Shown in pieces: positions 1 to 56,346 of a stretch of DNA of 64,000 nucleotides. Each line of letters begins with the position of its first letter. Within the stretch, counting starts at the first letter, position 1. The DNA is taken from NCBI RefSeq assembly GCF_027942865.1, contig NC_134515.1:2010839-2074838 (forward strand). The letters run 5' to 3'. Both the position numbers and the translations under genes were made by a program. The notes below the pieces were generated by a model. That model was not told the origin of the DNA. It was given only the letters and a program-made list of their open reading frames with translations, and did no database searches. Source of the stretch: Odontesthes bonariensis. Taxonomy: Eukaryota > Chordata > Actinopteri > Atheriniformes > Atherinopsidae.

Positions 1-548
1 GGAAGAAATGGAAGCTCTGTGCTCCATGTCCTCAGAATGCAGACTGTCCTCAGCGACCAGTCCAACAGCCAATCTCTGTGATGGTATGGGGTTTCATCAG
101 TGCTCTTGGCAAAGTGATGGAAGCATTGTTTTCCTATAATTACTCTAGATGGCATATCTTTGGCTTCTAGTACTACAGTGAGGAAAGTTGGAGTTATTTT
201 TGAAGAGGATCTGTTCTTTGACTCACATATAAAACAGGTTTCTAGGACTGCCTTCTTTCACCTTCGTAATATTGCCAAAATTGGGAACATCCTGTCTCAG
301 ACTGATGCAGAAAAACTGCTCCATACATTTGTGACTTCAAGATTGGACTGGGCGGGGGATTGGATTGAGAAGTTTCAGTTCAATCTGTTGGTTTCCTGAG
401 CTAAGCTACTTATTTCTACGTTGCCTTTATATGAATTGGACGAATTTGCAATCAAACATTTTGTCTCATCAGCTTAATTTCGTTTGTTCTTACGGTTCAA
501 TTTTTGAATTTCAGGCTGCAACATTTTCTAGAAAACACTAGATTTCTG

Positions 549-620
549 TCCCATATGGTCTAGCGGCTAGGATTCCTGGTTTTCACCCAGGCGGCCCGGG
601 TTCAACTCCCGGTATGGGAA
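549..620 (+). tRNA. tRNA-Glu-TTC: tRNA-Glu (TTC), array copy 1, consensus
   Basis: Reference copy; bases are numbered 1-72 along the gene here and in the other copies. Acceptor stem 1-7/65-71 pairs fully (TCCCATA with TATGGGA) and base 72 is the discriminator A. The D arm holds box A (TGGTCTAGCGG). The anticodon stem CCTGG/CCAGG (27-31/39-43) closes a loop with anticodon TTC at 34-36. The T stem CCGGG/CCCGG (48-52/60-64) carries box B (GGTTCAACTCC). There is no intron and CCA is not encoded, as usual for eukaryotes. It differs from the human tRNA-Glu-TTC sequence I recall at only about three sites, including A instead of G in the T loop. The sequence after the gene has TTATTT but no T4 run until 774-777. 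Confidence 0.93.
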
Positions 621-1193
621 TAGTTATTTGACTAAATGGTTGGTTGGAAGAAATGGAAGCTGTGTGCTCCATGTCCTCAGAATTCAGACTGTCCTCAGCG
701 ACCAGTCCAACAGCCAATCTCTATGATGGTATGGGGTTTCATCAGTGCTCTTGGCAAAGTGACGGAAGCATTGTTTTCCTATAGTTACTCTCGATGGCAT
801 ATCTTTGGCTTTTAGTACTACATTGAGGAAAGTTGAAGTTATTTTTGACCAGGATCTGTCCTTTGACTCACATATAAAACAGGTTTCTAGGACTGCCTTC
901 TTTCACCTTCGTAATAATTCCAAAATTGGGAACATCCTGTCTCAGACTGATGCAGAAAAACTGCTCCATACTTTTGTGTCTTCAAGATTGGACTGGGCGG
1001 GGGATTGGATTGAGAAGTTTCAGTTCAATCTGTTGGTTTCCTGAGCTAAGCTACTTATTTCTACGTTGCCTTTATATGAATTGGACGAATTTGCAATCAA
1101 ACATTTTGTCTCATCAGCTTAATTTCGTTTGTTCTTACGGTTCAATTTTTGAATTTCAGGCTGCAACATTTTCTAGAAAACACTAGATTTCTG

Positions 1194-1265
1194 TCCCATA
1201 TGGTCTAGCGGCTAGGATTCCTGGTTTTCACCCAGGCGGCCCGGGTTCAACTCCCGGTATGGGAA
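1194..1265 (+). tRNA. tRNA-Glu-TTC: tRNA-Glu (TTC), array copy 2
   Basis: Identical to copy 1 over all 72 bases. Confidence 0.92.
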
Positions 1266-1839
1266 TAGTTATTTGACTAAATGGTTGGTTGGAAGAAATG
1301 GAAGCTGTGTGCTCCATGTCCTCAGAATGCAGACTGTCCTCAGTGACCAGTCCAACAGCCAATCTCTGTGATGGTATGGGGTTTCATCAGTGCTCTTTGC
1401 AAAGTGATGGAAGCATTGTTTTCCTATAGTTACTCTCGATGGCATATCTTTGGCTTCTAGTACTACAGTGAGGAAAGTTGGGAGTTTTTTTTGACCAGGA
1501 TCTGTCCTTTCACTCACATATAAAACAGGTTTCTGGGACTGCCTTCTTTCACCTTTGCAATAATTCCAAAATTGGGAACATCCTGTCTCAGACTGATGCA
1601 GAAAAACTGCTCCATACTTTTGTGTCTTCAAGATTGGACTGGGCGGGGGATTGGATTGAGAAGTTTCAGTTCAATCTGTTGGTTTCCTGAGCTAAGCTAC
1701 TTATTTCTACGTTGCCTTTATATGAATTGGACGAATTTGCAATCAAACATTTTGTCTCATCAGCTTAATTTCGTTTGTTCTTACGGTTCAATTTTTGAAT
1801 TTCAGGCTGCAACATTTTCTAGAAAACACTAGATTTCTG

Positions 1840-1911
1840 TCCCATATGGTCTAGCGGCTAGGATTCCTGGTTTTCACCCAGGCGGCCCGGGTTCAACTCC
1901 CGGTATGGGAA
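1840..1911 (+). tRNA. tRNA-Glu-TTC: tRNA-Glu (TTC), array copy 3
   Basis: Identical to copy 1; the trailer reads TTGTTT in place of TTATTT. Its unit is 646 bp because of one extra base in the L2 fragment. Confidence 0.92.
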
Positions 1912-2484
1912 TAGTTGTTTGACTAAATGGTTGTTTGGAAGAAATGGAAGCTGTGTGCTCCATGTCCTCAGAATGCAGACTGTCCTCAGCGACCAGTCCA
2001 ACAGCCAATCTCTGTGATGGTATGGGGTTTCATCAGTGCTCTTGGCAAAGTGATGGAAGCATTGTTTTCCTATAGTTACTCTAGATGGCATATCTTTGGC
2101 TTCTAGTACTACATTGAGGAAAGTTGGAGTTATTTTTGACCAGAATCTGTCCTTTGACTCACATATAAAACAGGTTTCTGGGACTGCCTTCTTTCACCTT
2201 CGTAATATTGCCAAAATTGGGAACATCCTGTCTCAGACTGATGCAGAAAAACTGCTCCATACATTTGTGACTTCAAGATTGGACTGGGCGGGGGATTGGA
2301 TTGAGAAGTTTCAGTTCAATCTGTTGGTTTCCTGAGCTAAGCTACTTATTTCTACGTTGCCTTTATATGAATTGGACTAATTTGGTCTCATACATTTAGT
2401 CTCATCAGCTTAATTTAGTTTGTTCTTACGGTTCAATTTTTGAATTTCAGGCTGCAACATATTCTAGAAAACAACAGATTTCTG

Positions 2485-2556
2485 TCCCATATGGTCTAGC
2501 GGCTAGGATTCCTGGTTTTCACCCAGGCGGCCCGGGTTCAACTCCCGGTATGGGAA
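2485..2556 (+). tRNA. tRNA-Glu-TTC: tRNA-Glu (TTC), array copy 4
   Basis: Identical to copy 1. Confidence 0.92.
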
Positions 2557-3129
2557 TAGTTATTTGACTAAATGGTTGGTTGGAAGAAATGGAAGCTGTG
2601 TGCTCCATGTCCTCAGAATGCAGACTGTCCTCAGTGACCAGTCCAACAGCCAATCTCTGTGATGGTATGGGGTTTCATCAGTGCTCTTGGCAAAGTGATG
2701 GAAGCGTTGTTTTCCTATAGTTACTCTAGATGGCATATCTTTGGCTTCTAGTACTACATTGAGGAAAGTTGGAGTTATTTTTGACCAGAATCTGTCCTTT
2801 GACTCACATATAAAACAGGTTTCTAGGACTGCCTTCTTTCACCTTCGTAATATTGCCAAAATTGGGAACATCCTGTCTCAGACTGATGCAGAAAAACTGC
2901 TCCATACATTTGTGACTTCAAGATTGGACTGGGCGGGGGATTGGATTGAGAAGTTTCAGTTAGATCTGTTGCTTTCCTGAGCTAAGCTACTTTTTTCTAC
3001 GTTGCCTTTATATGAATTGGACGAATTTGCAATCAAACATTTTGTCTCATCAGCTTAATTTAATTTGTTATTACGGTTCAATTTTTGAATTTCAGGCTGC
3101 AATATATTCTAGAAAACGCTAGATTGCTG

Positions 3130-3201
3130 TCCCATATGGTCTAGCGGCTAGGATTCCTGGTTTTCACCCAGGCGGCCTGGGTTCAACTCCCGGTATGGGA
3201 A
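3130..3201 (+). tRNA. tRNA-Glu-TTC: tRNA-Glu (TTC), array copy 5
   Basis: C49T in the T stem, which gives a tolerable G-U pair with G63. Confidence 0.88.
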
Positions 3202-3774
3202 TAGTTATTTGACTAAATGGTTGGTTGGAAGAAATGGAAGCTGTGTGCTCCATGTCCTCAGAATGCAGACTGTCCTCAGCGACCAGTCCAACAGCCAATC
3301 TTTGTGATGGTATGGGGTTTCATCAGTGCTCTTGGCAAAGTGATGGAAGCATTGTTTTCCTATAATTACTCTAGATGGCATATCTTTGGCTTCTAGTACT
3401 ACATTGAGGAAAATTGGAGTTATTTTTGACCAGAATCTGTCCTTTGACTCACATATAAAACAGGTTTCTGGGACTGCCTTCTTTCACCTTCGTAATATTG
3501 CCAAAATTGGGAACATCCTGTCTCAGACTGATGCAGAAAAACTGCTCCATACATTTGTGACTTTAAGATTGGACTGGGCGGGGGATTGGATTGAGAAGTT
3601 TCAGTTCAATCTGTTGGTTTCCTGAGCTAAGCTACTTATTTCTACGTTGCCTTTATATGAATTGGACTAATTTGCAATCAAACATTTAGTCTCATCAGCT
3701 TAATTTTGTTTGTTCTTACGGTTCAATTTTTGAATTTCAGGCTGCAACATATTCTAGAAAACACTAGATTTCTG

Positions 3775-3846
3775 TCCCATATGGTCTAGCGGCTAGGATT
3801 CCTGGTTTTCACCCAGGCGGCCCGGGTTCAACTCCCGGTATGGGAA
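3775..3846 (+). tRNA. tRNA-Glu-TTC: tRNA-Glu (TTC), array copy 6
   Basis: Identical to copy 1. Confidence 0.92.
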
Positions 3847-4419
3847 TAGTTATTTGACTAAATGGTTGGTTGGAAGAAATGGAAGCTGTGAGCTCCATGT
3901 CCTCAGAATGCAGACCGTCCTCAGTGACCAGTCCAACAGCCAATCTCTGTGATGGTATGGGGTTTCATCAGTGCTCTCGGCAAAGTGATGGAAGCATTGT
4001 TTTCCTATAGTTACTCTAGATGGCATATCTTTGGCTTCTAGTACTACATTGAGGAAAGTTGGAGTTATTTTTGACCAGAATCTGTCCTTTGACTCACATA
4101 TAAAACAGGTTTCTAGGACTGCCTTCTTTCACCTTTGTAATATTGCCAAAATTGGGAACATCCTGTCTCAGACTGATGCAGAAAAACTGCTCCATACATT
4201 TGTGACTTCAAGATTGGACTGGGCGGGGGATTGGATTGAGAAGTTTCAGTACAATCTGTTGGTTTCCTGAGCTAAGCTACTTATTTCTACGTTGCCTTTA
4301 TATGAATTGGACGAATTTGGTCTCATACATTTAGTCTCATCAGCTTAATTTTGTTTGTTCTTACGGTTCAATTTTTGAAATTCAGGCTGCAACATATTCT
4401 AGAAAACAACAGATTTCTG

Positions 4420-4491
4420 TCCCATATGGTCTAGCGTCTAGGATTCCTGGTTTTCACCCAGGCGGCCTGGGTTCAACTCCCGGTATGGGAA
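4420..4491 (+). tRNA. tRNA-Glu-TTC: tRNA-Glu (TTC), array copy 7, D-loop damaged
   Basis: G18T removes one of the two invariant D-loop guanines (and the last G of box A); C49T gives a G-U pair. Folding of the elbow is probably impaired. Confidence 0.65.
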
Positions 4492-5064
4492 TAGTTATTT
4501 GACTAAATGGTTGGTTGGAAGAAATGGAAGCTCTGTGCTCCATGTCCTCAGAATGCAGACTGTCCTCAGCGACCAGTCCAACAGCCAATCTCTGTGATGG
4601 TATGGGGTTTCATCAGTGCTCTTGGCAAAGTGATGGAAGCATTGTTTTCCTATAATTACTCTAGATGGCATATCTTTGGCTTCTAGTACTACAGTGAGGA
4701 AAGTTGGAGTTATTTTTGAAGAGGATCTGTTCTTTGACTCACATATAAAACAGGTTTCTAGGACTGCCTTCTTTCACCTTCGTAATATTGCCAAAATTGG
4801 GAACATCCTGTCTCAGACTGATGCAGAAAAACTGCTCCATACATTTGTGACTTCAAGATTGGACTGGGCGGGGGATTGGATTGAGAAGTTTCAGTTCAAT
4901 CTGTTGGTTTCCTGAGCTAAGCTACTTATTTCTACGTTGCCTTTATATGAATTGGACGAATTTGCAATCAAACATTTTGTCTCATCAGCTTAATTTTGTT
5001 TGTTCTTATGGTTAAATTCTTTAATTTAAGGCTGCAACATATTCTAGGAAACTCTAGATTGCTG

Positions 5065-5136
5065 TCCCATATGGTCTAGCGGCAACGATTCCTGGTTTTC
5101 ACCCAGGTGGCCCGGGTTCAACTCCCGGTATGGGAA
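5065..5136 (+). tRNA. tRNA-Glu-TTC: tRNA-Glu (TTC), array copy 8, D-stem variant
   Basis: T20A and G22C alter the D arm; C44T restores the base seen in human tRNA-Glu. Same variant as copy 32. Confidence 0.72.
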
Positions 5137-5709
5137 TCGTTATTTGACTAAATGGTTGGTTGGAAGAAATGGAAGCTGTGTGCTCCATGTCCTCAGAATG
5201 CAGACTGTCCTCAGTGACCAGTCCAACAGCCAATCTCTGTGATGGTATGGGGTTTCATCAGTGCTCTTGGCAAAGTGATGGAAACATTGTTTTCCTATAG
5301 TTACTCTAGATGGCATATCTTTGGCTTCTAGTACTACATTGAGGAAAGTTGGAGTTATTTTTGACCAGAATCTGTCCTTTGACTCACATATAAAACAGGT
5401 TTCTGGGACTGCCTTCTTTCACCTTCGTAATATTGCCAAAATTGGGAACATCCTGTCTCAGACTGATGCAGAAAAACTGCTCCATACATTTGTGACTTCA
5501 AGATTGGACTGGGCGGGGGATTGGATTGAGAAGTTTCGGTGCAATCTGTTGGTTTCCTGAGCTAAGCTACTTATTTCTACGTTGCCTTTATATGAATTGG
5601 ACGAATTTGCAATCATACATTTTGTCTCATCAGCTTAATTTCATTTGTTCTTACGGTTCAATTTTTGAATTTCAGGCTGCAATATATTCTAGAAAACAAC
5701 AGATTTCTG

Positions 5710-5781
5710 TCCCATATGGTCTAGCGGCTAGGATTCCTGGTTTTCACCCATGTGGCCCGGGTTCAACTCCCGGTATGGGAA
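5710..5781 (+). tRNA. tRNA-Glu-TTC: tRNA-Glu (TTC), array copy 9, anticodon-stem mismatch
   Basis: G42T breaks anticodon-stem pair 28/42; C44T in the variable loop. Same variant as copy 33. Confidence 0.68.
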
Positions 5782-6354
5782 TAGTTATTTGACTAAATGG
5801 TTGGTTGGAGGAAATGGAAGCTGTGTGCTCCATGTCCTCAGAATGCAGACTGTCCTCAGCGACCAGTCCAACAGCCAATCTCTGTGATGGTATGGGGTTT
5901 CATCAGTGCTGTTGGCAAAGTGATGGAAGCATTGTTTTCCTATAGTTACTCTATATGGCATATCTTTGGCTTCTAGTACTACAGTGAGGAAAGTTGGAGT
6001 TATTTTTTACCAGAATCTGTCCTTTGACTCACATATAAAAAAGGTTTCTAGGACTGCCTTCTTTCACCTTCGTAATATTGCCAAAATTGGGAACATCCTG
6101 TCTCAGACTGATGCAGAAAAACTGCTCCATACATTTGTGACTTCAAGATTGGACTGGGCGGGGGATTGGATTGAGAAGTTTCAGGTCAATCTGTTGGTTT
6201 CCTGAGCTAAGCTACTTATTTCTACGTTGCCTTTATATGAATTGGACGAATTTGCAATCAAACATTTTGTCTCATCAGCTTAATTTCATTTGTTCTTACG
6301 GTTCAATTTTTGAATTTCAGGCTGCAACATATTCTAGAAAACACTCGATTGCTG

Positions 6355-6426
6355 TCCCATATGGTCTAGCGGCTAGGATTCCTGGTTTTCACCCAGGTGG
6401 CCCGGGTTCAACTCCCGGTATGGGAA
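6355..6426 (+). tRNA. tRNA-Glu-TTC: tRNA-Glu (TTC), array copy 10
   Basis: Only C44T in the variable loop, outside the stems. Confidence 0.9.
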
Positions 6427-6999
6427 TAGTTATTTGACTAAATGGTTGGTTGGAAGAAATGGAAGCTGTGTGCTCCATCTCCTCAGAATGCAGACTGTCC
6501 TCAGCGACCAGTCCAACAGCCAATCTCTGTGATGGTATGGGGTTTCATCAGTGCTCTTGGCAAAGTGATGGAAGCATTGTTTTCCTTTAGTTACTCTAGA
6601 TGGCATATCTTTGGCTTCTAGTACTACATTGAGGAAAGTTGGAGTTATTTTTGACCAGAATCTGTCCTTTGACTCACATATAAAACAGGTTTCTAGGACT
6701 GCCTTCTTTCACCTTCGTAATATTGCCAAAATTGGGAACATCCTGTCTCAGACTGATGCAGAAAAACTGCTCCATACTTTTGTGACTTCAAGATTGGACT
6801 GGGCGGGGGATTGGATTGAGAAGTTTCAGTTCAATCTGTTGGTTTCCTGAGCTAAGCTACTTATTTCTACGTCGCCTTTATATGAATTGGACTAATTTGG
6901 TCTCATACATTTAGTCTCATCAGCTTAATTTCGTTTATTCTCACGGTTCAATTTTTGAATTTCAGGCTGCAACATATTCTAGAAAACACTAGATTTCTG

Positions 7000-7071
7000 T
7001 CCCATATGGTCTAGCGGCTAGGATTCCTGGTTTTCACCCAGGAGGCCTGGGTTCAACTCCCGGTATGGGAA
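7000..7071 (+). tRNA. tRNA-Glu-TTC: tRNA-Glu (TTC), array copy 11
   Basis: C44A in the variable loop and C49T (G-U pair). Trailer reads TTACTT. Confidence 0.85.
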
Positions 7072-7643
7072 TAGTTACTTGACTAAATGGTTGGTTGGAA
7101 GAAATGGAAGCTGTGTGCTCCATGTCCTCACAATGCAAACTGTCCTCAGCGACCAGTCCAACAGCCAATCTCTGTGATGGTATGGGGTTTCATCAGTGCT
7201 CTTGGCAAAGTGATGGAAGCATTGTTTTCCTATAGTTACTCTAGATGGCATATCTTTGGCTTCTAGTACTAGAGTGAGGAAAGTTGGAGTTATTTTTGAC
7301 CAGAATCTGTCCTTCTACTCACATATAAAACAGGTTTCTGGGACTGCCTTCTTTCACCTTTGTAATATTGCCAAAATTGGGAACATCCTGTCTCAGACTG
7401 ATGCAGAAAAACTGCTCCAACTTTCCTGACTTCAAGATTGGACTGGGCGGGGGATTGGATTGAGAAGTTTCAGTTCAATCTGTTGGTTTCCTGAGCTAAG
7501 CTACTTATTTCTACGTTGCCTTTATATGAATTGGACTAATTTGGTCTCATACATTTTGTCTCATCAGCTTAATTTCATTTGTTCTTACGGTTCAATTAAT
7601 GAATTTCAGGCTGCAACATATTCTAGAAAACACTAGATTTCTG

Positions 7644-7715
7644 TCCCATATGGTCGAGCAGCTAGGATTCCTGGTTTTCACCCAGGCGGCCTGGGTTCAA
7701 CTCCCGGTATGGGAA
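7644..7715 (+). tRNA. tRNA-Glu-TTC: tRNA-Glu (TTC), array copy 12, D-arm damaged
   Basis: T13G and G17A; the second removes an invariant D-loop guanine and weakens box A. Also C49T. Trailer TTATTC. Confidence 0.6.
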
Positions 7716-8288
7716 TAGTTATTCGACTAAATGGTTGGTTGGAAGAAATGGAAGCTGTGTGCTCCATGTCCTCAGAATGCAGACTGTCCTCAGTGAGCAG
7801 TCCAACAGCCAATCTCTGTGATGGTATGGGGTTTCATCAGTGCTCTTGGCAAAGTGATGGAAGCATTGTTTTCCTATAGTTACTCTAGATGGCATATCTT
7901 TGGCTTCTAGTACTACATTGAGGAAAGTTGGAGTTATTTTTGACCAGAATCTGTCCTTTGACTCACATATAAAACAGGTTTCTAGGACTGCCTTCTTTCA
8001 CCTTCGTAATATTGCCAAAATTGGGAACATCCTGTCTCAGACTGATGCAGAAAAACTGCTCCATACTTTTGTGACTTCAAGATTGGACTGGGCGGGGGAT
8101 TGGATTGAGAAGTTTCAGTTCAATCTGTTGGTTTCCTGAGCTAAGCTACTTATTTCTACGTTGCCTTTATATGAATTGGACGAATATGCAATCAAACATT
8201 TTGTCTCATCAGCTTAATTTCGTTTGTTCTTACGGTTCAATTTTTGAATTTCAGGCTGCAACATATTCTAGAAAACAACAGATTTCTG

Positions 8289-8360
8289 TCCCATATGGTC
8301 TAGCGGCTAGGATTCCTGGTTTTCACCCAGGCGGCCTGGGTTCAACTCCAGGTATGGGAA
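8289..8360 (+). tRNA. tRNA-Glu-TTC: tRNA-Glu (TTC), array copy 13, T-stem mismatch
   Basis: C49T plus C62A: a wobble and a G-A mismatch side by side in the T stem. Followed by the 9-bp loss. Confidence 0.68.
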
Positions 8361-8924
8361 TAGTTATTTGACTAAATGGTTGGTTGGAAGCTGTGTGCTC
8401 CATGTCCTCAGAATGCAGACTGTCCTCAGCGACCAGTCCAACAGCCAATCTCTGTGATGGTATGGGGTTTCATCAGTGCTCTTGGCAAAGTGATGGAAGC
8501 GTTGTTTTCCTATAGTTACTCTAGATGGCATATCTTTGGCTTTTAGTACTACATTGAGTAAAGTTGGAGTTATTTTTGACCAGGATCTGTCCTTTGACTC
8601 ACATATAAAACAGGTTTCTGGGACTGCCTTCTTTCACCTTCAGAATATTGCCAAAATTGGGAACATCCTGTCTCAGACTGATGCAGAAAAACTGCTCCAT
8701 ACATTTGTGACTTCAAGATTGGACTGGGCGGGGGATTGGATTGAGAAGTTTCAGTTCAATCTGTTGGTTTCCTGAGCTAAGCTACTTATTTCTACGTTGC
8801 CTTTATATGAATTGGACGAATTTGCAATCAAACATTTTGTCTCATCAGCTTAATTTCATTTGTTCTTACGGTTCAATTTTTGAATTTCAGGCTGCAACAT
8901 ATTCTAGAAAACACTAGATTGCTG

Positions 8925-8996
8925 TCCCATATGGTCTAGTGGCTAGGATTCCTGGTTTTCACCCAGGCGGCCCGGGTTCAACTCCCGGTATGGGAA
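8925..8996 (+). tRNA. tRNA-Glu-TTC: tRNA-Glu (TTC), array copy 14, strong terminator
   Basis: Only C16T, within box A tolerance. The trailer has a T6 run starting about 5 bp after the gene, one of four copies with a canonical Pol III stop. Confidence 0.92.
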
Positions 8997-9008
8997 TAGT
9001 TTTTTGAC
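8997..9008 (+). terminator. Canonical Pol III terminator (T6)
   Basis: ATAGTTTTTTGA directly after copy 14. The same T6 occurs only after copies 17 (10,922-10,933), 54 (34,727-34,738) and 77 (49,437-49,448). In the other copies the tract is TTATTT, TTGTTT or TTACTT, with no run of four Ts. Confidence 0.8.
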
Positions 9009-9569
9009 TAAATGGTTGGTTGGAAGAAATGGAAGCTGTGTGCTCCATGTCCTCAGAATGCAGACTGTCCTCAGTGACCAGTCCAACAACCAATCTCTGT
9101 GATGGTATGGGGTTTCATCAGTGCTCTTGGCAAAGTGATGGAAGCATTGTTTTCCTATAGTTACTCTAGATGGCATATCTTTGGCTTCTAGTACTACATT
9201 GAGGAAAGTTGGAGTTATTTTTGACCAGAATCTGTCCTTTGACTCACATATAAAACAGGTTTCTAGGACTGCCTTCTTTCACCTTCGTAATATTGCCAAA
9301 ATTGGGAACATCCTGTCTCAGACTGATGCAGAAAAACTGCTCCATACATTTGTGACTTCAAGATTGGACTGGGCGGGGGATTGGATTGAGAAGTTTCAGT
9401 TCAATCTGTTGGTTTCCTGAGCTAAGCTACTTATTTCTACGTCGCCTTTATATGAATTGGACTAATTTGGTCTCATACATTTAGTCTCATCAGCTTAATT
9501 TCGTTTATTCTCACGGTTCAATTTTTGAATTTCAGGCTGCAACATATTCTAGAAAACACTAGATTTCTG

Positions 9570-9641
9570 TCCCATATGGTCTAGCGGCTAGGATTCCTGG
9601 TTTTCACCCAGGAGGCCTGGGTTCAACTCCCGGTATGGGAA
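9570..9641 (+). tRNA. tRNA-Glu-TTC: tRNA-Glu (TTC), array copy 15
   Basis: C44A and C49T, trailer TTACTT; duplicate of copy 11, 2,570 bp away. Confidence 0.85.
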
Positions 9642-10213
9642 TAGTTACTTGACTAAATGGTTGGTTGGAAGAAATGGAAGCTGTGTGCTCCATGTCCTCA
9701 CAATGCAAACTGTCCTCAGCGACCAGTCCAACAGCCAATCTCTGTGATGGTATGGGGTTTCATCAGTGCTCTTGGCAAAGTGATGGAAGCATTGTTTTCC
9801 TATAGTTACTCTAGATGGCATATCTTTGGCTTCTAGTACTAGAGTGAGGAAAGTTGGAGTTATTTTTGACCAGAATCTGTCCTTCTACTCACATATAAAA
9901 CAGGTTTCTGGGACTGCCTTCTTTCACCTTTGTAATATTGCCAAAATTGGGAACATCCTGTCTCAGACTGATGCAGAAAAACTGCTCCAACTTTCCTGAC
10001 TTCAAGATTGGACTGGGCGGGGGATTGGATTGAGAAGTTTCAGTTCAATCTGTTGGTTTCCTGAGCTAAGCTACTTATTTCTACGTTGCCTTTATATGAA
10101 TTGGACTAATTTGGTCTCATACATTTTGTCTCATCAGCTTAATTTCATTTGTTCTTACGGTTCAATTAATGAATTTCAGGCTGCAACATATTCTAGAAAA
10201 CACTAGATTTCTG

Positions 10214-13420: not shown

Positions 13421-13492
13421 TCCCATATGGTCTAGCGGCTAGGATTCCTGGTTTAAACCCAGGTGGCCCGGGTTCAACTCCCGGTATGGGAA
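13421..13492 (+). tRNA. tRNA-Glu backbone with TAA anticodon, array copy 21
   Basis: The anticodon loop has A at 35 and 36 (TTTAAAC in place of TTTTCAC), so the anticodon reads TAA, which would pair with the leucine codon UUA. C44T is the only other difference. All stems, box A and box B are intact. The rest of the body is tRNA-Glu and lacks the long variable arm of tRNA-Leu, so leucyl charging is unlikely. Glutamyl charging is also doubtful, since glutamyl-tRNA synthetases usually read the anticodon. The only anticodon change among the 79 copies. Confidence 0.8.
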
Positions 13493-32146: not shown

Positions 32147-32173
32147 TAGTTATTTGACTAAATGGTTGGTTGG

Positions 32174-40511: not shown

Positions 40512-41073
40512 TAGTTATTTGACTAAATGGTTGGTTGGAAGAAATGGAAGCTGTGTGCTCCATGTCCTCAGAATGCAGACTGTCCTCAGTGACCAGTCCA
40601 ACAGCCAATCTCTGTGATGGTATGGGGTTTCATCAGTGCTCTTGGCAAAGTGATGGAAGCATTGTTTTCCTATAGTTACTCTAGATGGCATATCTTTGGC
40701 TTCTAGTACTACATTGAGGAAAGTTGGAGTTATTTTTGACCAGAATCTGTCCTTTGACTCACATATAAAACAGGTTTCTAGGACTGCCTTCTTTCACCTT
40801 CGTAATATTGCCAAAAATGGGAACATCCTGTCTCAGACTGATGCAGAAAAACTGCTCCATACATTTGTGACTTCAAGATTGGACTGGGCGGGGGATTGGA
40901 TTGAGGAGAAGTTTCAGTTCAATCTGTTGGTTTCCTGAGCTAAGCTACTTATTTCTACGTTGCCTTTATATGAATTGGACTAATTTGGTCTCATCAGCTT
41001 AATTTTGTTTGTTCTTACGGTTCAATTTTTGAATTTCAGGCTGCAACATATTCTAGAAAACACTAGATTTCTG

Positions 41074-41145
41074 TCCCATATGGTCTAGCGGCTAGGATTC
41101 CTGGTTTTCACCCAGGCGGCCCAGGTTCAACTCCCGGTATGGGAA
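41074..41145 (+). tRNA. tRNA-Glu-TTC: tRNA-Glu (TTC), array copy 64
   Basis: G50A (A-C mismatch in the T stem). Its unit lacks 14 bp and gains 3 bp upstream. Confidence 0.74.
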
Positions 41146-41718
41146 TAGTTATTTGACTAAATGGTTGGTTGGAAGAAATGGAAGCTGTGTGCTCCATGTC
41201 CTCAGAATGCAGACTGTCCTCAGCGACCAGACCAACAGCCAATCTCTGTGATGGTACGGGGTTTCATCAGTGCTCTTGGCAAAGTGATGGAAGCGTTGTT
41301 TTCCTATAGTTACTCAAGATGGCATATCTTTGGCTTCTAGTACTACAGTGAGGAAAGTTGGAGTTATTTTTGACCAGAATCTGTCCTTTGACTCACATAT
41401 AAAACAGGTTTCTGGGACTGCCTTCTTTCACCTTCGTAATATTGCCAAAATTGGGAACATCCTATCTCAGACTGATGCAGAAAAACTGCTCCATACGTTT
41501 GTGACTTCAAGATTGGACTGGGCGGGGGATTGGATTGAGAAGTTTCAGTTCAATCTGTTGGTTTCCTGAGCTAATCTACTTATTTCTATGTTGACTTTAT
41601 ATGAATTGGACGAATTTGCAATCAAACATTTTGTCTCATCAGCTTAATTTCGTTTGTTCTTACGGTTAAATTTTTGAATTTCAGGCTGCAACATATTCTA
41701 GAAAACAACAGATTTCTG

Positions 41719-41790
41719 TCCCATATGGTCTAGCGGCTAGGATTCCTGGTTTTCACCCAGGCGGCCCGGGTTCAACTCCCGGTATGGGAA
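41719..41790 (+). tRNA. tRNA-Glu-TTC: tRNA-Glu (TTC), array copy 65
   Basis: Identical to copy 1; followed by the 18-bp loss. Confidence 0.92.
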
Positions 41791-42345
41791 TAGTTATTTG
41801 ACTAAATGGTTGGTTGGAAGAAATGGAAGCTGTGTGCTCCATGTCCTCAGTGACCAGTCCAACAGCCAATCTCTGTGATGGTATGGGGTTTCATCAGTGC
41901 TCTTGGCAAAGTGATGGAAGCATTGTTTTCCTATAGTTACTCTAGATGGCATATCTTTGGCTTCTAGTACTACATTGAGGAAAGTTGGAGTTATTTTTGA
42001 CCAGAATCTGTCCTTTGACTCACATATAAAACAGGTTTCTGGGACTGCCTTCTTTCACCTTCGTAATATTGCCAAAATTGGGAACATCCTATCTCAGACT
42101 GATGCAGAAAAACTGCTCCATACGTTTGTGACTTCAAGATTGGACTGGGCGGGGGATTGGATTGAGAAGTTTCAGTTCAATCTGTTGGTTTCCTGAGCTA
42201 ATCTACTTATTTCTATGTTGACTTTATATGAATTGGACGAATTTGCAATCAAACATTTTGTCTCATCAGCTTAATTTCGTTTGTTCTTACGGTTAAATTT
42301 TTGAATTTCAGGCTGCAACATATTCTAGAAAACAACAGATTTCTG

Positions 42346-42417
42346 TCCCATATGGTCTAGCGGCTAGGATTCCTGGTTTTCACCCAGGCGGCCCGGGTTC
42401 AACTCCCGGTATGGGAA
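42346..42417 (+). tRNA. tRNA-Glu-TTC: tRNA-Glu (TTC), array copy 66
   Basis: Identical to copy 1. Confidence 0.92.
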
Positions 42418-42990
42418 TAGTTATTTGACTAAATGGTTGGTTGGAAGAAATGGAAGCTGTGTGCTCCATGTCCTCAGAATGCAGAATGTCCTCAGTGACC
42501 AGTCCAACAGCCAATCTCTGTGATGGTATGGGGTTTCATCAGTGCTCTTGGCAAAGTGATGGAAGCATTTTTTTCTTATAGTTACTCTAGATGGCATATC
42601 TTTGGCTTCTAGTACTACAGTGAGGAAAGTTGGAGTTATTTTTGAAGAGGATCTGTTCTTTGACTCACATATAAAACAGGTTTCTAGGACTGCCTTCTTT
42701 CACCTTCATAATAATGCCAAAATTGGGAACATCCTGTCTCAGACTGATGCAGAAATACTGCTCCATACATTTGTGACTTCAAGATGGGACTGGGCGAGGG
42801 ATTGGATTGAGAAGTTTCAGTTCAATCTGTTGGTTTCCTGAGCTAAGCTACTTATTTCTACGTTGCCTTTATATGAATTGGACGAATTTGCAATCAAACA
42901 TTTTGTCTCATCAGCTTAATTTTATTTGTTCTTACGGTTCAATTTTTGAATTTCAGGCTGCAACATATTCTAGAAAACAACAGATTTCTT

Positions 42991-43062
42991 TCCCATATGG
43001 TCTAGCGGCTAGGATTCCTGGTTTTCACCCAGGCGGCCCAGGTTCAACTCCCGGTATGGGAA
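42991..43062 (+). tRNA. tRNA-Glu-TTC: tRNA-Glu (TTC), array copy 67
   Basis: G50A, T-stem mismatch. Confidence 0.74.
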
Positions 43063-43613
43063 TAGTTATTTGACTAAATGGTTGGTTGGAAGAAATGGAA
43101 GCTGTGTGCTCCATGTCCTCAGAATGCAGACTGTCCTCAGCGACCAGTCCAACAGCCAATCTCTGTGATGGTATGGGGTTTCATCAGTGCTCTTGGCAAA
43201 GTGATGGAAGCATTGTTTTCCTATAGTTACTCTAGATGGCATATCTTTGGCTTCTAGTACTACATTGAGGAAAGTTGGAGTTATTTTTGACCAGGATCTG
43301 TCCTTTGACTCACATATAAAACAGGTTTCTGGGACTGCCTTCTTTCACCTTCGTAATATTGCCAAAATTGGGAACATCCTGTCTCAGACTGATGCAGAAA
43401 AACTGCTTCATACATTTGTGACTTCAAGATTGGACTGGGCGGGGGATTGGATTGAGAAGTTTCAGTTCAATCTGTTGGTTTCCTGAGCTAAGCTACTTAT
43501 TTCTATGTTGCCTTCATATGAATTGGACTAATTTGGTCTCATACATTTAGTCTCATCAGCTTCAATTTTTGAATTTCAGGCTGCAACATATTCTAGAAAA
43601 CATGAGATTTCTG

Positions 43614-43685
43614 TCCCATATGGTCTAGCGGCTAGGATTCCTGGTTTTCACCCAGGCGGCCTGGGTTCAACTCCTGGTATGAGAA
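43614..43685 (+). tRNA. tRNA-Glu-TTC: tRNA-Glu (TTC), array copy 68
   Basis: C49T, C62T and G69A; the last breaks acceptor pair 3/69. Lies in the shortest unit (605 bp; 22-bp and 18-bp losses). Confidence 0.66.
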
Positions 43686-44240
43686 TAGTTATTTGACTAA
43701 ATGGTTGGTTGGAAGAAATGGAAGCTGTGTGCTCCATGTCCTCAGTGACCAGTCCAACAGCCAATCTCTGTGATGGTATGGGGTTTCATCAGTGCTCTTG
43801 GCAAAGTGATGGAAGCATTGTTTTCCTATAGTTACTCTAGATGGCATATCTTTGGCTTCTCGTACTACATTGAGGAAAGTTGGAGTTATTTTTGACCAGA
43901 ATCTGTCCTTTGACTCACATATAAAACAGGTTTCTAGGACTGCCTTCTTTAATTTTCGTAATATTGCCAAAATTGGGAACATCCTGTCTCAGACTGATGC
44001 AGAAAAACTGCTCCATACATTTGTGACTTCAAGATTGGACTGGGCGGGGGATTGGATTGAGAAGTTTCAGTACAATCTGTTGGTTTCCTGAGCTAAGCTA
44101 CTTATTTCTACGTTGCCTTTATATGAATTGGACGAATTTGGTCTCATACATTTAGTCTCATCAGCTTAATTTCGTTTGTTCTTACGGTTCAATTTTTGAA
44201 ATTCAGGCTGCAACATATTCTAGAAAACACAAGATTGCTG

Positions 44241-44312
44241 TCCCATATGGTCTAGCGGCTAGGATTCCTGGTTTTCACCCAGGCGGCCCGGGTTCAACTC
44301 CCGGTATGGGAA
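44241..44312 (+). tRNA. tRNA-Glu-TTC: tRNA-Glu (TTC), array copy 69
   Basis: Identical to copy 1. Confidence 0.92.
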
Positions 44313-44885
44313 TAGTTATTTGACTAAATGGTTGGTTGGAAGAAATGGAAGCTGTGTGCTCCATGTCCTCAGAATGCAGACTGTCCTCAGCGACCAGTCC
44401 AACAGCCAATCTCTGTGATGGTATGGGGTTTCATCAGTGCTCTTGGCAAAGTGATGGAAGCATTGTTTTCCTATAGTTACTCTAGATGGCATATCTTTGG
44501 CTTCTCGTACTACATTGAGGAAAGTTGGAGTTATTTTTTACCAGAATCTGTCCTTTGACTCACATATAAAACAGGTTTCTAGGACTGCCTTCTTTAATTT
44601 TCGTAATATTGCCAAAATTGGGAACATCCTGTCTCAGACTGATGCAGAAAAACTGCTCCATACATTTGTGACTTCAAGATTGGACTGGGCGGGGGATTGG
44701 ATTGAGAAGTTTCAGTTCAATCTGTTGGTTTCCTGAGCTAAGCTACTTATTTCTACGTTGTCTTTATATGAATTGGACGAATTTGCAATCAAACATTTTG
44801 TCTCATCAGCTTAATTTCGTTTGTTCTTACGGTTCAATTTTTGAATTTCAGGCTGCAACATATGCTAGAAAACACTAGATTTCTG

Positions 44886-44957
44886 TGCCATATGGTCTAG
44901 CGGCTAGGATTCCTGGTTTTCACCCAGGTGGCCTGGGTTCGACTCCCGGTATGGGAA
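44886..44957 (+). tRNA. tRNA-Glu-TTC: tRNA-Glu (TTC), array copy 70, G57-type T loop
   Basis: C2G, C44T, C49T and A56G, exactly as copy 60 although the unit upstream is different; a sign of conversion or crossover. Confidence 0.7.
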
Positions 44958-45512
44958 TAGTTATTTGACTGAATGGTTGGTTGGAAGAAATGGAAGCTGT
45001 GTGCTCCATGTCCTCAGTGACCAGTCCAACAGCCAATCTCTGTGATGGTATGGGGTTTCATCAGTGCTCTTGGCAAAGTGATGGAAGCATTGTTTTCCTA
45101 TAGTTACTCTAGATGGCATATCTTTGGCTTCTAGTACTACATTGAGGAAAGTTGGAGTTATTTTTGACCAGAATCTGTCCTTTGACTCACATATAAAACA
45201 GGTTTCTGGGACTGCCTTCTTTCACCTTCGTAATATTGCCAAAATTGGGAACATCCTATCTCAGACTGATGCAGAAAAACTGCTCCATACGTTTGTGACT
45301 TCAAGATTGGACTGGGCGGGGGATTGGATTGAGAAGTTTCAGTTCAATCTGTTGGTTTCCTGAGCTAATCTACTTATTTCTATGTTGACTTTATATGAAT
45401 TGGACTAATTTGGTCTCATACATTTAGTCTCATCAGCTTAATTTCGTTTGTTCTTACGGTTAAATTTTTGAATTTCAGGCTGCAACATATTCTAGAAAAC
45501 AACAGATTTCTT

Positions 45513-45584
45513 TCCCATATGGTCTAGCGGCTAGGATTCCTGGTTTTCACCCAGGCGGCCCAGGTTCAACTCCCGGTATGGGAA
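45513..45584 (+). tRNA. tRNA-Glu-TTC: tRNA-Glu (TTC), array copy 71
   Basis: G50A, T-stem mismatch. Confidence 0.74.
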
Positions 45585-46157
45585 TAGTTATTTGACTAAA
45601 TGGTTGGTTGGAAGAAATGGAAGCTGTGTGCTCCATGTCCTCAGAATGCAGACTGTCCTCAGCGACCAGTCCAACAGCCAATCTCTGTGATGGTATGGGG
45701 TTTCATCAGTGCTCTTGGCAAAGTGATGGAAGCATTGTTTTCCTATAGTTACTCTAGATGGCATATCTTTGGCTTCTAGTACTACATTGAGGAAAGTTGG
45801 AGTTATTTTTGACCAGGATCTGTCCTTTGACTCACATATAAAACAGGTTTCTGGGACTGCCTTCTTTCACCTTCGTAATATTGCCAAAATTGGGAACATC
45901 CTGTCTCAGACTGATGCAGAAAAACTGCTTCATACATTTGTGACTTCAAGATTGGACTGGGCGGGGGATTGGATTGAGAAGTTTCAGTTCAATCTGTTGG
46001 TTTCCTGAGCTAATCTACTTATTTCTATGTTGCCTTCATATGAATTGGACTAATTTGGTCTCATACATTTAGTCTCATCAGCTTAATTTCGTTTGTTGTT
46101 ACGGTTCAATTTTTGAATTTCAGGCTGCAACATATTCTAGAAAACATGAGATTTCTG

Positions 46158-46229
46158 TCCCATATGGTCTAGCGGCTAGGATTCCTGGTTTTCACCCAGG
46201 CGGCCTGGGTTCAACTCCTGGTATGAGAA
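46158..46229 (+). tRNA. tRNA-Glu-TTC: tRNA-Glu (TTC), array copy 72
   Basis: C49T, C62T and G69A, exactly as copy 68; followed by the 18-bp loss. Confidence 0.66.
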
Positions 46230-46784
46230 TAGTTATTTGACTAAATGGTTGGTTGGAAGAAATGGAAGCTGTGTGCTCCATGTCCTCAGTGACCAGTCCA
46301 ACAGCCAATCTCTGTGATGGTATGGGGTTTCATCAGTGCTCTTGGCAAAGTGATGGAAGCATTGTTTTCCTATAGTTACTCTAGATGGCATATCTTTGGC
46401 TTCTCGTACTACATTGAGGAAAGTTGGAGTTATTTTTGACCAGAATCTGTCCTTTGACTCACATATAAAACAGGTTTCTAGGACTGCCTTCTTTAATTTT
46501 CGTAATATTGCCAAAATTGGGAACATCCTGTCTCAGACTGATGCAGAAAAACTGCTCCATACATTTGTGACTTCAAGATTGGACTGGGCGGGGGATTGGA
46601 TTGAGAAGTTTCAGTACAATCTGTTGGTTTCCTGAGCTAAGCTACTTATTTCTACGTTGCCTTTATATGAATTGGACGAATTTGGTCTCATACATTTAGT
46701 CTCATCAGCTTAATTTCGTTTGTTCTTACGGTTCAATTTTTGAAATTCAGGCTGCAACATATTCTAGAAAACACAAGATTGCTG

Positions 46785-46856
46785 TCCCATATGGTCTAGC
46801 GGCTAGGATTCCTGGTTTTCACCCAGGCGGCCCGGGTTCAACTCCCGGTATGGGAA
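46785..46856 (+). tRNA. tRNA-Glu-TTC: tRNA-Glu (TTC), array copy 73
   Basis: Identical to copy 1. Confidence 0.92.
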
Positions 46857-47429
46857 TAGTTATTTGACTAAATGGTTGGTTGGAAGAAATGGAAGCTGTG
46901 TGCTCCATGTCCTCAGAATGCAGACTGTCCTCAGCGACCAGCCCAACAGCCAATCTCTGTGATGGTATGGGGTTTCATCAGTGCTCTTGGCAAAGTGACG
47001 GAAGCATTGTTTTCCTATAGTTACTCTCGATGGCATATCTTTGGCTTTTAGTACTACATTGAGGAAAGTTGAAGTTATTTTTGACCAGAATCTGTCCTTT
47101 GACTCACATATAAAACAGGTTTCTGGGACTGCCTTCTTTAATTTTCGTAATATTGCCAAAATTGGGAACATCCTGTCTCAGACTGATGCAGAAAAACTGC
47201 TCCATACATTTGTGACTTCAAGATTGGACTGGGCGGGGGATTGGATTGAGAAGTTTCAGTACAATCTGTTGGTTTCCTGAGCTAAGCTACTTATTTCTAC
47301 GTTGCCTTTATATGAATTGGACGAATTTGCAATCAAACATTTTGTCTCATCAGCTTAATTTTATTTGTTCTTACGGTTCAATTTTTGAATTTCAGGCTGC
47401 AACATATTCTAGAAAACAACAGATTTCTG

Positions 47430-47501
47430 TCCCATATGGTCTAGCAGCTAGGATTCCTGGTTTTCACCCAGGCGGCCCGGGTTCAACTCCTGGTATGGGA
47501 A
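47430..47501 (+). tRNA. tRNA-Glu-TTC: tRNA-Glu (TTC), array copy 74
   Basis: G17A (invariant D-loop guanine lost) and C62T. Confidence 0.68.
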
Positions 47502-48074
47502 TCGTTATTTGACTAAATGGTTGGTTGGAAGAAATGGAAGCTGTGTGCTCCATGTCCTCAGAATGCAGACTGTCCTCAGCGACCAGTCCAACAGCCAATC
47601 TCTGTGATGGTATGGGGTTTCATCAGTGCTCTTGGAAAAGTGATGGGAGCATTGTTTTCCTATAGTTACTCTAGATGGCATATCTTTGGCTTCTAGTACT
47701 ACAGTGAGGAAAGTTGGAGTTATTTTTGAAGAGGATCTGTTCTTTGACTCACATATAAAACAGGTTTCTAGGACTGCCTTCTTTCACCTTCGTAATATTG
47801 CCAAAATTGGGAACATCCTGTCTCAGACTGATGCAGAAAAACTGCTCCATACATTTGTGACTTTAAGATTGGACTGGGCGGGGGATTGGATTGAGAAGTT
47901 TCAGTTCAATCTGTTGGTTTCCTGAGCTAAGCTACTTATTTCTACGCTGTCTTTATATGAATTGGACTAATTTGGTCTCATACATTTCGTCTCATCAGCT
48001 TAATTTCGTTTGTTCTTACGGTTCAATTTTTGAATTTCAGGCTGCAACATATTCTAGAAAACAACAGATATCTG

Positions 48075-48146
48075 TCCCATATGGTCTAGCGGCTAGGATT
48101 CCTGGTTTTCACCCAGCCGGCCCGGGTTCAACTCCTGGTATGGGAA
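48075..48146 (+). tRNA. tRNA-Glu-TTC: tRNA-Glu (TTC), array copy 75
   Basis: G43C breaks the first anticodon-stem pair; C62T gives G-U. Confidence 0.68.
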
Positions 48147-48719
48147 TAGTTATTTGACTAAATGGTTTTGTTGGAAGAATTGGAAGCTGTGAGCTCCATG
48201 TCTTCAGAATGCAGACTGTCCTCAGTGACCAGTCCAACAGCCAATCTCTGTGATGGTATGGGGATTCATCAGTTCTCTTTCAAAGTGATGGAAGCATTGT
48301 TTTCCTATAGTTACTCTAGATGGCATATCTTTGGCTTCTAGTCCTACATTGATGAAAGTTGGAGTTATTTTTGACCAGGATCTGTCCTTTGACTCACATA
48401 TAAAACAGGTTTCTAGGACTGCCTTCTTTCACCTTCGTAATATTGCCAAAATTGGGAACATCCTGTCTCAGACTGATGCAGAAAAACTGCTCCATACATT
48501 TGTGACTTCAAGATTGGACTGGGCGGGGGATTGGATTGAGAAGTTTCAGTTCAATCTGTTGATTTCCTGAGCTAAGCTACTTATTTATACGTTGCCTTTA
48601 TATGAATTGTACGAATTTGCAATCAAACATTTTGTCTCATCAGCTTAATTTCGTTTGTTCTTACGGTTCAATTTTTGAATTTCAGGCTGCAACATATTCT
48701 AGGAAACACTAGATTTCTG

Positions 48720-48791
48720 TCCCATATGGTCTAGCGGCTAGGATTCCTGGTTTTCACCCAGGCGGCCCGTATTCAACTCCCGGTATGGGAA
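48720..48791 (+). tRNA. tRNA-Glu-TTC: tRNA-Glu (TTC), array copy 76, box B damaged
   Basis: G51T and G52A break two T-stem pairs and alter the start of box B. Transcription is probably reduced. Confidence 0.52.
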
Positions 48792-49364
48792 TAGTTATTT
48801 GTCTAAATGGTTGGTTGGAAGAAATGGAAGCTGTGTGCTCCATGTCCTCAGAATGCAGACTGTCCTCAGCGACCAGTCCAACAGCCAATCTCTGTGATGG
48901 TATGGGGTTTCATCAGTGCTCTTGGCAAAGTGACGGAAGCATTGTTTTCCTATAGTTACTCTAGATGGCATCTCTTTGGCTTCTAGTACTACATTGAGGA
49001 AAGTTGGAGTTATTTTTGACCAGAATCTGTCCTTTGACTCACATATAAAACAGGTTTCTAGGACTGCCTTCTTTCACCTTTGTAATATTGCCAAAATTGG
49101 GAACATCCTGTCTCAGACTGATGCAGAAAAACTGCTCCAAACATTTGTTTCTTCAAGATTGGACTGGGCGGGGGATTGGATTGAGAAGTTTCAGTTCAAT
49201 CTGTTGGTTTCCTGAGCTAAGCTACTTATTTCTACGTTGCTTTTATATGAATTGGACGAATTTGCAATCAAACATTTAGTCTCATCAGCTTAATTTAATT
49301 TGTTCTTACGGTTCAATTTTTGAATTTCAGGCTGCAACATATTCTAGGAAACACTAGATTTCTG

Positions 49365-49436
49365 TCCCATATGGTCTAGCGGCTAGGATTCCTGGTTTTC
49401 ACCCCGGCGGCCCGGGTTCAACTCCCGGTATGGGAA
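49365..49436 (+). tRNA. tRNA-Glu-TTC: tRNA-Glu (TTC), array copy 77, strong terminator
   Basis: A41C breaks the middle anticodon-stem pair. Followed by a T6 run. Confidence 0.75.
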
Positions 49437-50009
49437 TAGTTTTTTGACTAAATGGTTGGTTGGAAGAAATGGAAGCTGTGTGCTCCATGTCCTCAGAATG
49501 CAGACTGTCCTCAGCGACCTGCCCAACAGCCATTCTCTGTGGTGTTATGGGGTTTCATCAGTGCTCTTGGCAAAGTGATGGAAGCATTGTTTTCCTATAG
49601 TTACTCTAGATGGCATATCTTTGGCTTCTAGTACTACATTGAGGAAAGTTGGAGTTATTTTTGACCAGGATCTGTTCTTTGACTCACATATAAAACATGT
49701 TTCTAGGACTGCCTTCTTTCACCTTCGTAATAATGCCAAAATTGGGAACATCCTGTCTCAGACTGATGCAGAAAAACTGCTCCATACATTTGTGACTTCA
49801 AGATTGGACTGGGCGGGGGATTGGATTGAGAAGTTTCAGTTCAATCTGTTGGTTTCCTGAGCTAAGCTACTTATTTCTACGTTGCCTTTATATGAATTGG
49901 ACTAATTTGGTCTCATACATTTAGTCTCATCAGCTTAATTTCGTTTGTTCTTACGGTTCAATTTTTGAATTTCAGCTTGCAACATATTCTAGAAAACACT
50001 AGATTGCTG

Positions 50010-50081
50010 TCCCATATGGTCTAGCGGCTAGGATTCCTGGTTTTCACCCAGGTGGCCCGGGTTCAACTCCCGGTATGGGAA
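50010..50081 (+). tRNA. tRNA-Glu-TTC: tRNA-Glu (TTC), array copy 78
   Basis: Only C44T. Confidence 0.9.
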
Positions 50082-50654
50082 TAGTTATTTGTCTAAATGG
50101 TTGGTTGGAAGATATGGAAGCTGTGTGCTCCATGTCCTCAGAATGCAGACTGTCCTCAGCGACCAGTTCTACAGCCAATCTCTGTGATGGTATGGGGTTT
50201 CATCAGTGCTCTTGGCAAAGTGACGGAAGCATTGTTTTCCTATAGTTACTCTAGATGGCATCTCTTTGGCTTCTAGTACTACAGTGAGGAAAGTTGGAGT
50301 TATTTTTGACCAGGATCTGTTCTTTGACTCACATATAAAACAGGTTTCTAGGACTGCCTTCTTTCACCTTTGTAATATTGCCAAAATTGGGAACATCCTG
50401 TCTCAGACTGATGCAGAAAAACTGCTCCATACTTTTGTGTCTTCAAGATTGGACTGGGCGGGGGATTGGATTGAGAAGTTTCAGTTCAATCTGTTGGTTT
50501 CCTGAGCTAAGCTACTTATTTCTACGTTGCCTTTATATGAATTGGACGAATTTGCAATCAAACATTTTGTCTCATCAGCTTAATTTCATTTGTTCTTACG
50601 GTTCAATTTTTGAATTTCAGGCTGCAACATATTCTAGAAAACAACAGATTTCTG

Positions 50655-50726
50655 TCCCATATGGTCTAGCGGCTAGGATTCCTGGTTTTCACCCAGGCGG
50701 CCCAGGTTCAACTCCCGGTATGGGAA
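50655..50726 (+). tRNA. tRNA-Glu-TTC: tRNA-Glu (TTC), array copy 79 (last)
   Basis: G50A, T-stem mismatch. The following unit has no tRNA: it is interrupted by an L2 LINE and then leaves the array sequence. Confidence 0.74.
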
Positions 50727-50983
50727 TAGTTATTTGACTAAATGGTTGGTTGGAAGAAATGGAAGCTGTGTGCTCCATGTCCTCAGAATGCAGACTGTCC
50801 TCAGCGACCAGTCCAACAGCCAATCTCTGTGATGGTATGGGGTTTCATCAGTGCTCTTGGCAAAGTGATGGAAGCATTGTTTTCCTATAGTTACTCTAGA
50901 TGGCATATCTTTGGCTTTTAGTACTACATTGAGGAAAGTTGGAGTTATTTTTGACCAGAATCTGTCCTTTGACTCACATATAA

Positions 50984-56327: not shown

Positions 56328-56346
56328 TATGATAATCTTCTTGCAA

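Follow-up and report, generated by a model that had tools for sequence, protein, structure and literature searches.

A tandem tRNA-Glu(TTC) array in the fish Odontesthes bonariensis, apparently evolving in concert and possibly in conditional use

We have analyzed a stretch of 64,000 nucleotides (the window, positions 2010839-2074838 of contig NC_134515.1, here C15) in the 945-Mb, 187-contig assembly of the fish Odontesthes bonariensis. Most of it is occupied by a macrosatellite of head-to-tail transfer RNA (tRNA) genes for glutamate with the anticodon TTC, which we call array A. As judged from its sequence, the array evolves in concert: variants become unlinked within ~80 bp and yet are spread over ~70 kb. 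We favor, tentatively and with about as much doubt as belief, the reading that it is conditionally used and perhaps of an oocyte type. Arrays of this kind are already known in fish, as an earlier annotation of the window (the first-pass annotation) had stated, and a 2010 study described teleost tRNA clusters of fifty or more members (PMC2888827). Array A adds another.

Extent of the array and concerted evolution of its units

ARAGORN and Rfam (cmscan) each found 79 tRNA genes in the window, at positions 549-50726 and all on the plus strand. The Rfam scores were 41.3-62.4 bits (the gathering score is 29) and the 78 spacings from tRNA to tRNA had a mode of 645 bp and a range of 623-648. The number, single strand and spacing agree with the first-pass annotation, which had called all 79 tRNA-Glu; ARAGORN reads 78 as Glu(TTC) and one, a Glu-body copy at 13421-13492 (plus strand), with the anticodon TAA. 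The first tRNA-Glu(TTC) copy (549-620, plus strand) represents the 79 and has the A box TGGTCTAGCGGC, the B box GGTTCAACTCC and the anticodon TTC. Within the window the array covers 1-50983 (plus strand): it starts there with an incomplete unit (1-548), continues through 78 full ones and reaches a last, broken one at 50655-50983. Its final tRNA copy (50655-50726, plus strand, found by both ARAGORN and Rfam) stands just ahead of an L2 insertion. Mean pairwise identity among the 78 full units is 96.1%, far above chance, and 73 of their 78 sequences are distinct, a few pairs of units being identical.

The array had been thought to extend out of the window, and so it does. Reading 200 kb further left placed its start at C15:1990891, ~20 kb left of the window, and the whole array gave 107 ARAGORN calls over ~71 kb, the first starting at C15:1991255 and the last being the call at 2061493. 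These were 104 Glu(TTC), one Leu(taa) and two undetermined, and the description as an isoacceptor-specific macrosatellite is right for nearly all the calls, not strictly for all. A homogeneous cluster of tRNA genes (tDNA) has been defined by neighbors less than 1000 nt apart and of the same isoacceptor (PMC2888827). Array A has the spacing of such a cluster, with start-to-start distances below 1000 nt in 103 of 106 intervals (102 of 623-646 nt and one of 834). The other three, all of 1278 nt, probably contain a whole unit whose tRNA ARAGORN missed. The statistics given below for the whole array use the 102 intervals of ordinary length, leaving out these four (834 and three of 1278).

The linkage between variants falls off over very short distances. 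For 27 common variants outside CpG dinucleotides in 102 units, the mean r2 was 0.378 at 0-19 bp, 0.15 at 20-39, 0.058 at 40-59 and 0.022 at 60-79, and then stayed between 0.007 and 0.046; all four gametes were present in 295 of 350 pairs of variants. The common variants are scattered over the whole array and are nearly unlinked past ~80 bp. The number of differences between units is nearly flat with their lag along the array (lowest at lag 4), and near-identical pairs are mostly 4 or 24 units apart. A star-like burst of amplification without exchange is ruled out by the four-gamete counts and by the decay of linkage within ~80 bp. Complete mixing is contradicted by a small positive autocorrelation of the common variants at lags 1, 2 and 4 (0.058, 0.057 and 0.114 over 78 units, values that 0, 1 and 0 of 300 permutations equaled). 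Rare alleles are clustered too: for 122 alleles in 2-4 copies, scored in 77 non-redundant units out of the 102, carriers were 15.5 units apart against 26.1 when permuted, and none of 500 permutations was as low. Given the residual autocorrelation and the clustered rare variants, exchange looks to be local first and then wider. The short exchange tracts point to gene conversion, and unequal exchange would produce the duplicate units. The pattern of exchange can be read off the units themselves, and gene conversion is the process that we infer behind it.

Likely constraint and transcription signals in the tRNA copies

Nineteen of the 78 full units carry the exact consensus tRNA (this count leaves out copy 79, whose unit is broken), the same number that the first-pass annotation gave. 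It had concluded from it that either homogenization was recent or selection still acted, and the count does not bear this weight. In 78 units, at least 19 exact copies are found for 400 of the 645 circular 72-bp windows along the unit (one of these being the tRNA itself), and in 102 units, where the tRNA has 31, the figure is equaled or exceeded by 273 of 645. Homogenization is also not just recent, as the scattered and unlinked variants indicate. What remains of the statement is a modest sign of constraint that comes from the frequency that variants reach. Non-CpG variant alleles arise at equal density in both parts of the unit, with 27 at the 64 sites of the tRNA and 235 at the 559 others (0.42 per site in either part). 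However, in the 102 units none of the 27 tRNA alleles reaches 5 copies vs. 60 of the 235 in the spacer (Fisher p 0.0011). After a merging of linked variants, only partial, the values in 78 units were 0/24 and 35/158 (p 0.005). If CpG sites are ignored the tRNA is exact in 70 of 102 copies, a level reached by 2 of the 645 windows (its own included), and for the spread of variants it is among the 2 lowest of these overlapping windows.

We have applied the same test of spread to a tRNA-Phe(GAA) macrosatellite of the same genome, with a 324-bp unit, found at C6:22010001-22020000 and C6:22060001-22066000 (42 units from 16 kb of array, after dropping units that covered less than ~90% of the reference). 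There tRNA and spacer did not differ (14/23 vs. 38/79, p 0.35), and the anticodon change G34T, which gives a Phe body reading TAA, was present in 7 of the 42 units. Constraint on the tRNA-Glu of array A is in our view likely but modest.

Most units hold what appear to be the parts of a gene for RNA polymerase III (Pol III), i.e., A box, B box and a proximal terminator, and may be active. The B box is intact in 100 of 102 units, and U8, A14, G18 and G19 are intact in 91 of 102. The putative terminator, TATTT (625-629 on the plus strand in the first copy, 4 nt past the tRNA), is minimal and non-canonical. Some proximal terminator is present in 94 of 102 units (TATTT in 88, T6 in 4, TGTTT in 2) and none in 8, against a baseline of 69 of 561 spacer 12-mers. 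A run of T4 lies within 30 nt of the tRNA in just 6 of 79 copies in the window and 6 of 107 in the whole array, and counting TTTT only would give array tRNAs without any terminator. This idea fails once TATTT is counted, a signal of moderate efficiency with 42% termination reported in a B2 short interspersed element (SINE) construct (PMC8466645; Pol III termination is also treated in PMC4982682 and PMC4937561).

CpG sites are off consensus at 0.107 per site and copy in the tRNA and 0.150 in the spacer, and other sites at 0.0075 and 0.021, respectively. This decay of CpG in tRNA and spacer alike suggests methylation in the germline, and from it we would expect the array to be usually closed.

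Other tRNA-Glu loci, composition of the unit and neighboring elements

We have searched the genome for exact matches to two words, an approach that overlooks diverged tRNA-Glu genes. A 23-nt word from the anticodon arm had 148 matches (97 forward and 51 reverse); among the 100 of them listed, 94 belong to array A and 3 to the beginning of another array (array B), with 2 more on C2 and 1 on C13. A 46-nt word of the array type had 102 matches (65 reverse and 37 forward), and the 100 listed are distributed over array A (63), array B (36) and C13 (1). The 46-nt word is not dispersed, its listed matches being the two arrays and one place on C13, and an origin as a tRNA-derived SINE was rejected.

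A third pattern, of the canonical type, had two exact matches outside the arrays, which are isolated canonical tRNA-Glu genes on C2 and C18 with downstream T runs of T4 and T7. Position 19 of the tRNA, which from the Rfam alignment should be 20 in canonical numbering, is C in all 102 array A units and T in both isolated genes, although the pattern that found these genes itself required T there. The 23-nt word, which does not require T, found outside the C15 arrays, among the matches listed, the same C2 gene with T, another match on C2 that is damaged and also has T, and, with C, the relic of the array type on C13. By these exact-word searches the isodecoder of the array is distinct from that of the isolated genes found.

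Array B is inverted and lies at C15:2277484-2311472, 213 kb from array A. Both of its ends were read and, at the 645-bp spacing, it should hold ~50 units. Six of its units or part-units have 88 non-consensus letters between them, and 69 of these are seen in array A too, compared with 1489 of 1552 when units of array A are checked against the other units there. The two arrays accordingly have a common ancestry or exchange sequence, and have diverged somewhat. Array B sits between exons similar to itpr3, and its tRNAs are antisense to them. On the plus strand we found exons of the N-terminal domain (C15:2229669-2235451), an exon at C15 ~2276949 matching residues 1215-1254 of IP3 receptor type 3, and an RIH_assoc exon at C15:2326738. 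The identification of the second rests on the PDB match (E 1.3e-14), its Pfam match being below the cut-off (E 0.031). To judge by their order and strand, these exons probably belong to one gene. Searches of the genome with two IP3-receptor domains found four loci that match both strongly, on C3 (two), C12 and C15. A simple inversion splitting a single array into A and B is disfavored, as the itpr3-like exons on either side of array B are all on the plus strand.

On C13 there is one damaged array-type tRNA with unit positions 1-164 and, 23 kb away, a copy without tRNA of unit 73-511 (C13:17651435-17651869). The latter starts exactly at the 3' boundary of the tRNA and adjoins a terminus that we take to be hAT-like; no second such terminus was found in the 6.5 kb beyond the copy. 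We considered this copy as a retroposed tRNA trailer and rejected it, no target duplication being seen by eye. Elsewhere, C16 (~24-33 Mb) and C2 (~34-39 Mb) hold many tRNA-Thr genes of several anticodons on both strands, some grouped closely, and most of the copies sampled there are without a nearby T4.

The 645-bp unit is AT-rich and has one tRNA, at unit positions 1-72. The first part of the spacer (621-770 on the plus strand in the first unit, unit 73 to ~225) looks by eye, in translation, like a scrap of a transposase that we assume to be Tc1-like; it had no Pfam and no PDB match. The second part (774-1088, plus strand, unit ~226-540, limits approximate) resembles a scrap of an L2-type long interspersed element (LINE), with 31 of 53 amino acids identical in translation to the L2 insert downstream of the array. 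A sister L2 scrap to the left of array A matches two stretches of the unit at 83% and 78%, and one L2-derived stretch is found in at least 34 other genomic places at 90%. Up to ~540, the unit would then be a tRNA with transposon scraps. Homology of unit 500-600 to the right flank is not relied on, as 1 of 200 shuffles equaled its score. One scan of spacer DNA against viral contigs gave no match.

Position 50983, given in the first-pass annotation as the end of the array, is instead the point where an L2-type LINE entered the last unit. The insert (50984-53538, plus strand), which we presume to be L2, has an Exo_endo_phos_2 match above the cut-off and an RVT_1 match only below it (the frame 51943-52710 was outside these Pfam searches). 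It is bracketed by a 6-bp duplication, ATATAA, at 50978-50983 and 53539-53544, placed by eye. The remainder of the broken unit follows at 53539-53714 (plus strand) and is the true right end of array A, 53541-53714 being identical to consensus unit 326-499 at 174 of 174 positions. An L2-like 3' end (53715-53890, plus strand) comes next; it was positioned by visual comparison with the L2 scrap on the other side of the array.

Further right, a copia retrotransposon occupies 55850-63474. Its long terminal repeats are 99% alike over 300 nt, and its minus strand matches gag, integrase and RVT_2. Nested in it is an element with inverted repeats (56895-59624), which in turn contains an RVT_1/zf-RVT frame (57042-59006), presumably L1/Tx1-like, flanked by a 20-nt repeat at 57175 and 59314. 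The window also has two perfect short repeats, (TCT)14 at 55253-55294 and (CATA)20 at 56248-56326.

Possible use of the array

The following course of events would account for the array. A tRNA-Glu gene may have been trapped between Tc1-like and L2 scraps, and the composite 645-bp unit then amplified head to tail. Unequal exchange would duplicate units, as in the near-identical pairs at distances of 4 and 24 units, and exchange over short tracts, for which gene conversion is the simplest process, would mix variants across the whole array. Probably methylated at CpG in the germline and usually closed, the array would be a conditional reserve that makes the array-type Glu isodecoder in a restricted setting, e.g., the growing oocyte, with the soma supplied by the isolated canonical genes. 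About half of the copies may be kept intact by weak selection that limits how far damaging tRNA variants spread. The role in the oocyte is suggested by analogy with zebrafish and Xenopus. Bona fide maternal tRNAs of zebrafish are reported to come from highly repetitive regions, and those isodecoders that appear only at later stages from isolated genes present once or in a few copies (PMC11417395), and a news article describes oocyte-specific tandem tRNA genes of Xenopus activated through 5-formylcytosine (PMC11500080).

Several observations weigh against this account. The 645 windows amount to ~9 independent ones, which makes the rank of the tRNA weak evidence by itself, and at higher thresholds the difference in spread is not significant (at least 8 copies in 78 units, 0/26 vs. 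26/207, p 0.09; at least 10 copies in 102 units, 0/27 vs. 27/235, p 0.09). The change C62A, which breaks a pair of the T stem, is present in 7 copies. Pair-breaking and other non-CpG variants number 12 and 14 in 78 units where 11.6 and 13.5 are expected, and since this share is as predicted from spacer rates there is no sign of selection on folding. TATTT is no better conserved than ordinary spacer (492 of 640 5-mers equal or exceed it), and just 50 of 102 copies pass all the integrity criteria. In zebrafish, most tRNA genes are described as lacking accessibility in early embryos, where the large clusters are near-completely CpG-methylated (PMC11574265). A simple bulk supply of tRNA is disfavored by the CpG decay in the tRNA, the 50 of 102 intact copies and this methylation of zebrafish clusters; tRNA gene copy number is also reported not to predict tRNA level in zebrafish (PMC11574265).

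A close rival, which we find plausible if somewhat less probable, is a selfish or neutral macrosatellite, amplified by recombination alone and silenced, in which the tRNA is a passenger without benefit. CpG decay nearly as strong in the tRNA as in the spacer would be expected of it, as would the damage in about half of the copies, and the near-complete methylation of zebrafish clusters is in its favor (PMC11574265). The examined part of the Phe array, decaying without constraint and with its anticodon changed in a sixth of the units (7/42), also speaks for it. However, in array A no non-CpG tRNA variant reaches 5 copies, unlike in the Phe array. This test of constraint and the parallel in zebrafish are the reasons why we prefer the conditional, oocyte-type reserve. 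We think it quite improbable that the array is a chromatin element rich in Pol III/TFIIIC, a boundary or clustering site whose tRNA genes act as protein-binding sites and not as sources of RNA. The intact B boxes agree with it, and so does the human tRNA repeat at 1q23.3, which binds CTCF and has been proposed as a boundary (PMC4041453), but conservation of the B box is ordinary, with 100 of 634 11-mers equaling or exceeding it. Finally, an assembly artefact inflating the copy number, to which the few identical pairs of units might point if tandem duplication did not explain them equally well, is very hard to credit for units that differ at ~29 of 645 positions on average, with a second, inverted array present, no N in the 200 kb fetched upstream of the window and non-array DNA on both flanks within one 39.97-Mb contig, features of the sequence around the array that make a collapsed or chimeric assembly unlikely.

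The conditional reserve could be drawn in fuller form. Two inverted tRNA-Glu arrays, one of them antisense within an itpr3-like gene, would together be a reserve of Pol III genes in the germline, methylated by default and opened in the oocyte or early embryo. The reserve would supply a Glu isodecoder whose D loop has C in place of U, and selection would keep it usable through the spread of variants and not copy by copy. So complete a scenario is unlikely to be right in all its parts.

Genes for 5S rRNA have a Pol III promoter of a different type from that of tRNA genes. Those of pike are likewise Pol III genes amplified in a fish, with the gene less variable than the spacer, and differ in being 5S rRNA genes in a far larger set of more than 20,000 methylated copies (PMC5437419). 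Large tDNA clusters also occur in teleosts, on zebrafish chromosome 4 and in stickleback, and those of zebrafish are parallel, as here (PMC2888827; PMC11417395; PMC11574265). In zebrafish, too, the isodecoders of clusters differ from the isolated ones, and CpG methylation is heavy, where here it is suggested by decay (PMC11417395; PMC11574265). However, neighboring pairs there are mostly of different isoacceptors, whereas in array A nearly all are Glu(TTC) (PMC2888827; PMC11417395; PMC11574265). The human 1q23.3 variable number tandem repeat is also a macrosatellite with tRNA genes in its unit, but this is a GC-rich unit of 7.3 kb in 9-43 units per allele, against 645 AT-rich bp here (PMC4041453). 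The SYY cluster of tRNA Ser/Tyr genes in Arabidopsis has tandem tRNA genes as well, with methylation that was measured; it is from a plant, has two isoacceptors, and was shown by experiment to be off in most tissues but active again in root tips (PMC12308677). The oocyte-specific genes of Xenopus (Parasyraki et al., 2024, via PMC11500080) are likewise vertebrate tandem tRNA arrays; their activation by stage was demonstrated, while ours is known from sequence. Among the titles and abstracts that our searches of an open-licence library listed, none describes a Glu-only tRNA array in a fish.

Array A bears on the question to what extent fish use their huge tRNA clusters, and to what extent these are silenced satellite DNA. 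A single base that all the array units examined have in common would distinguish a transcript of the array from those of the isolated genes found, and the tRNA-Phe array of the same genome, with no sign of constraint, is an internal control. With this diagnostic base and this control, use of the array could be tested directly in this species. Concerted evolution, too, can be seen clearly here, as can the population structure of the units.

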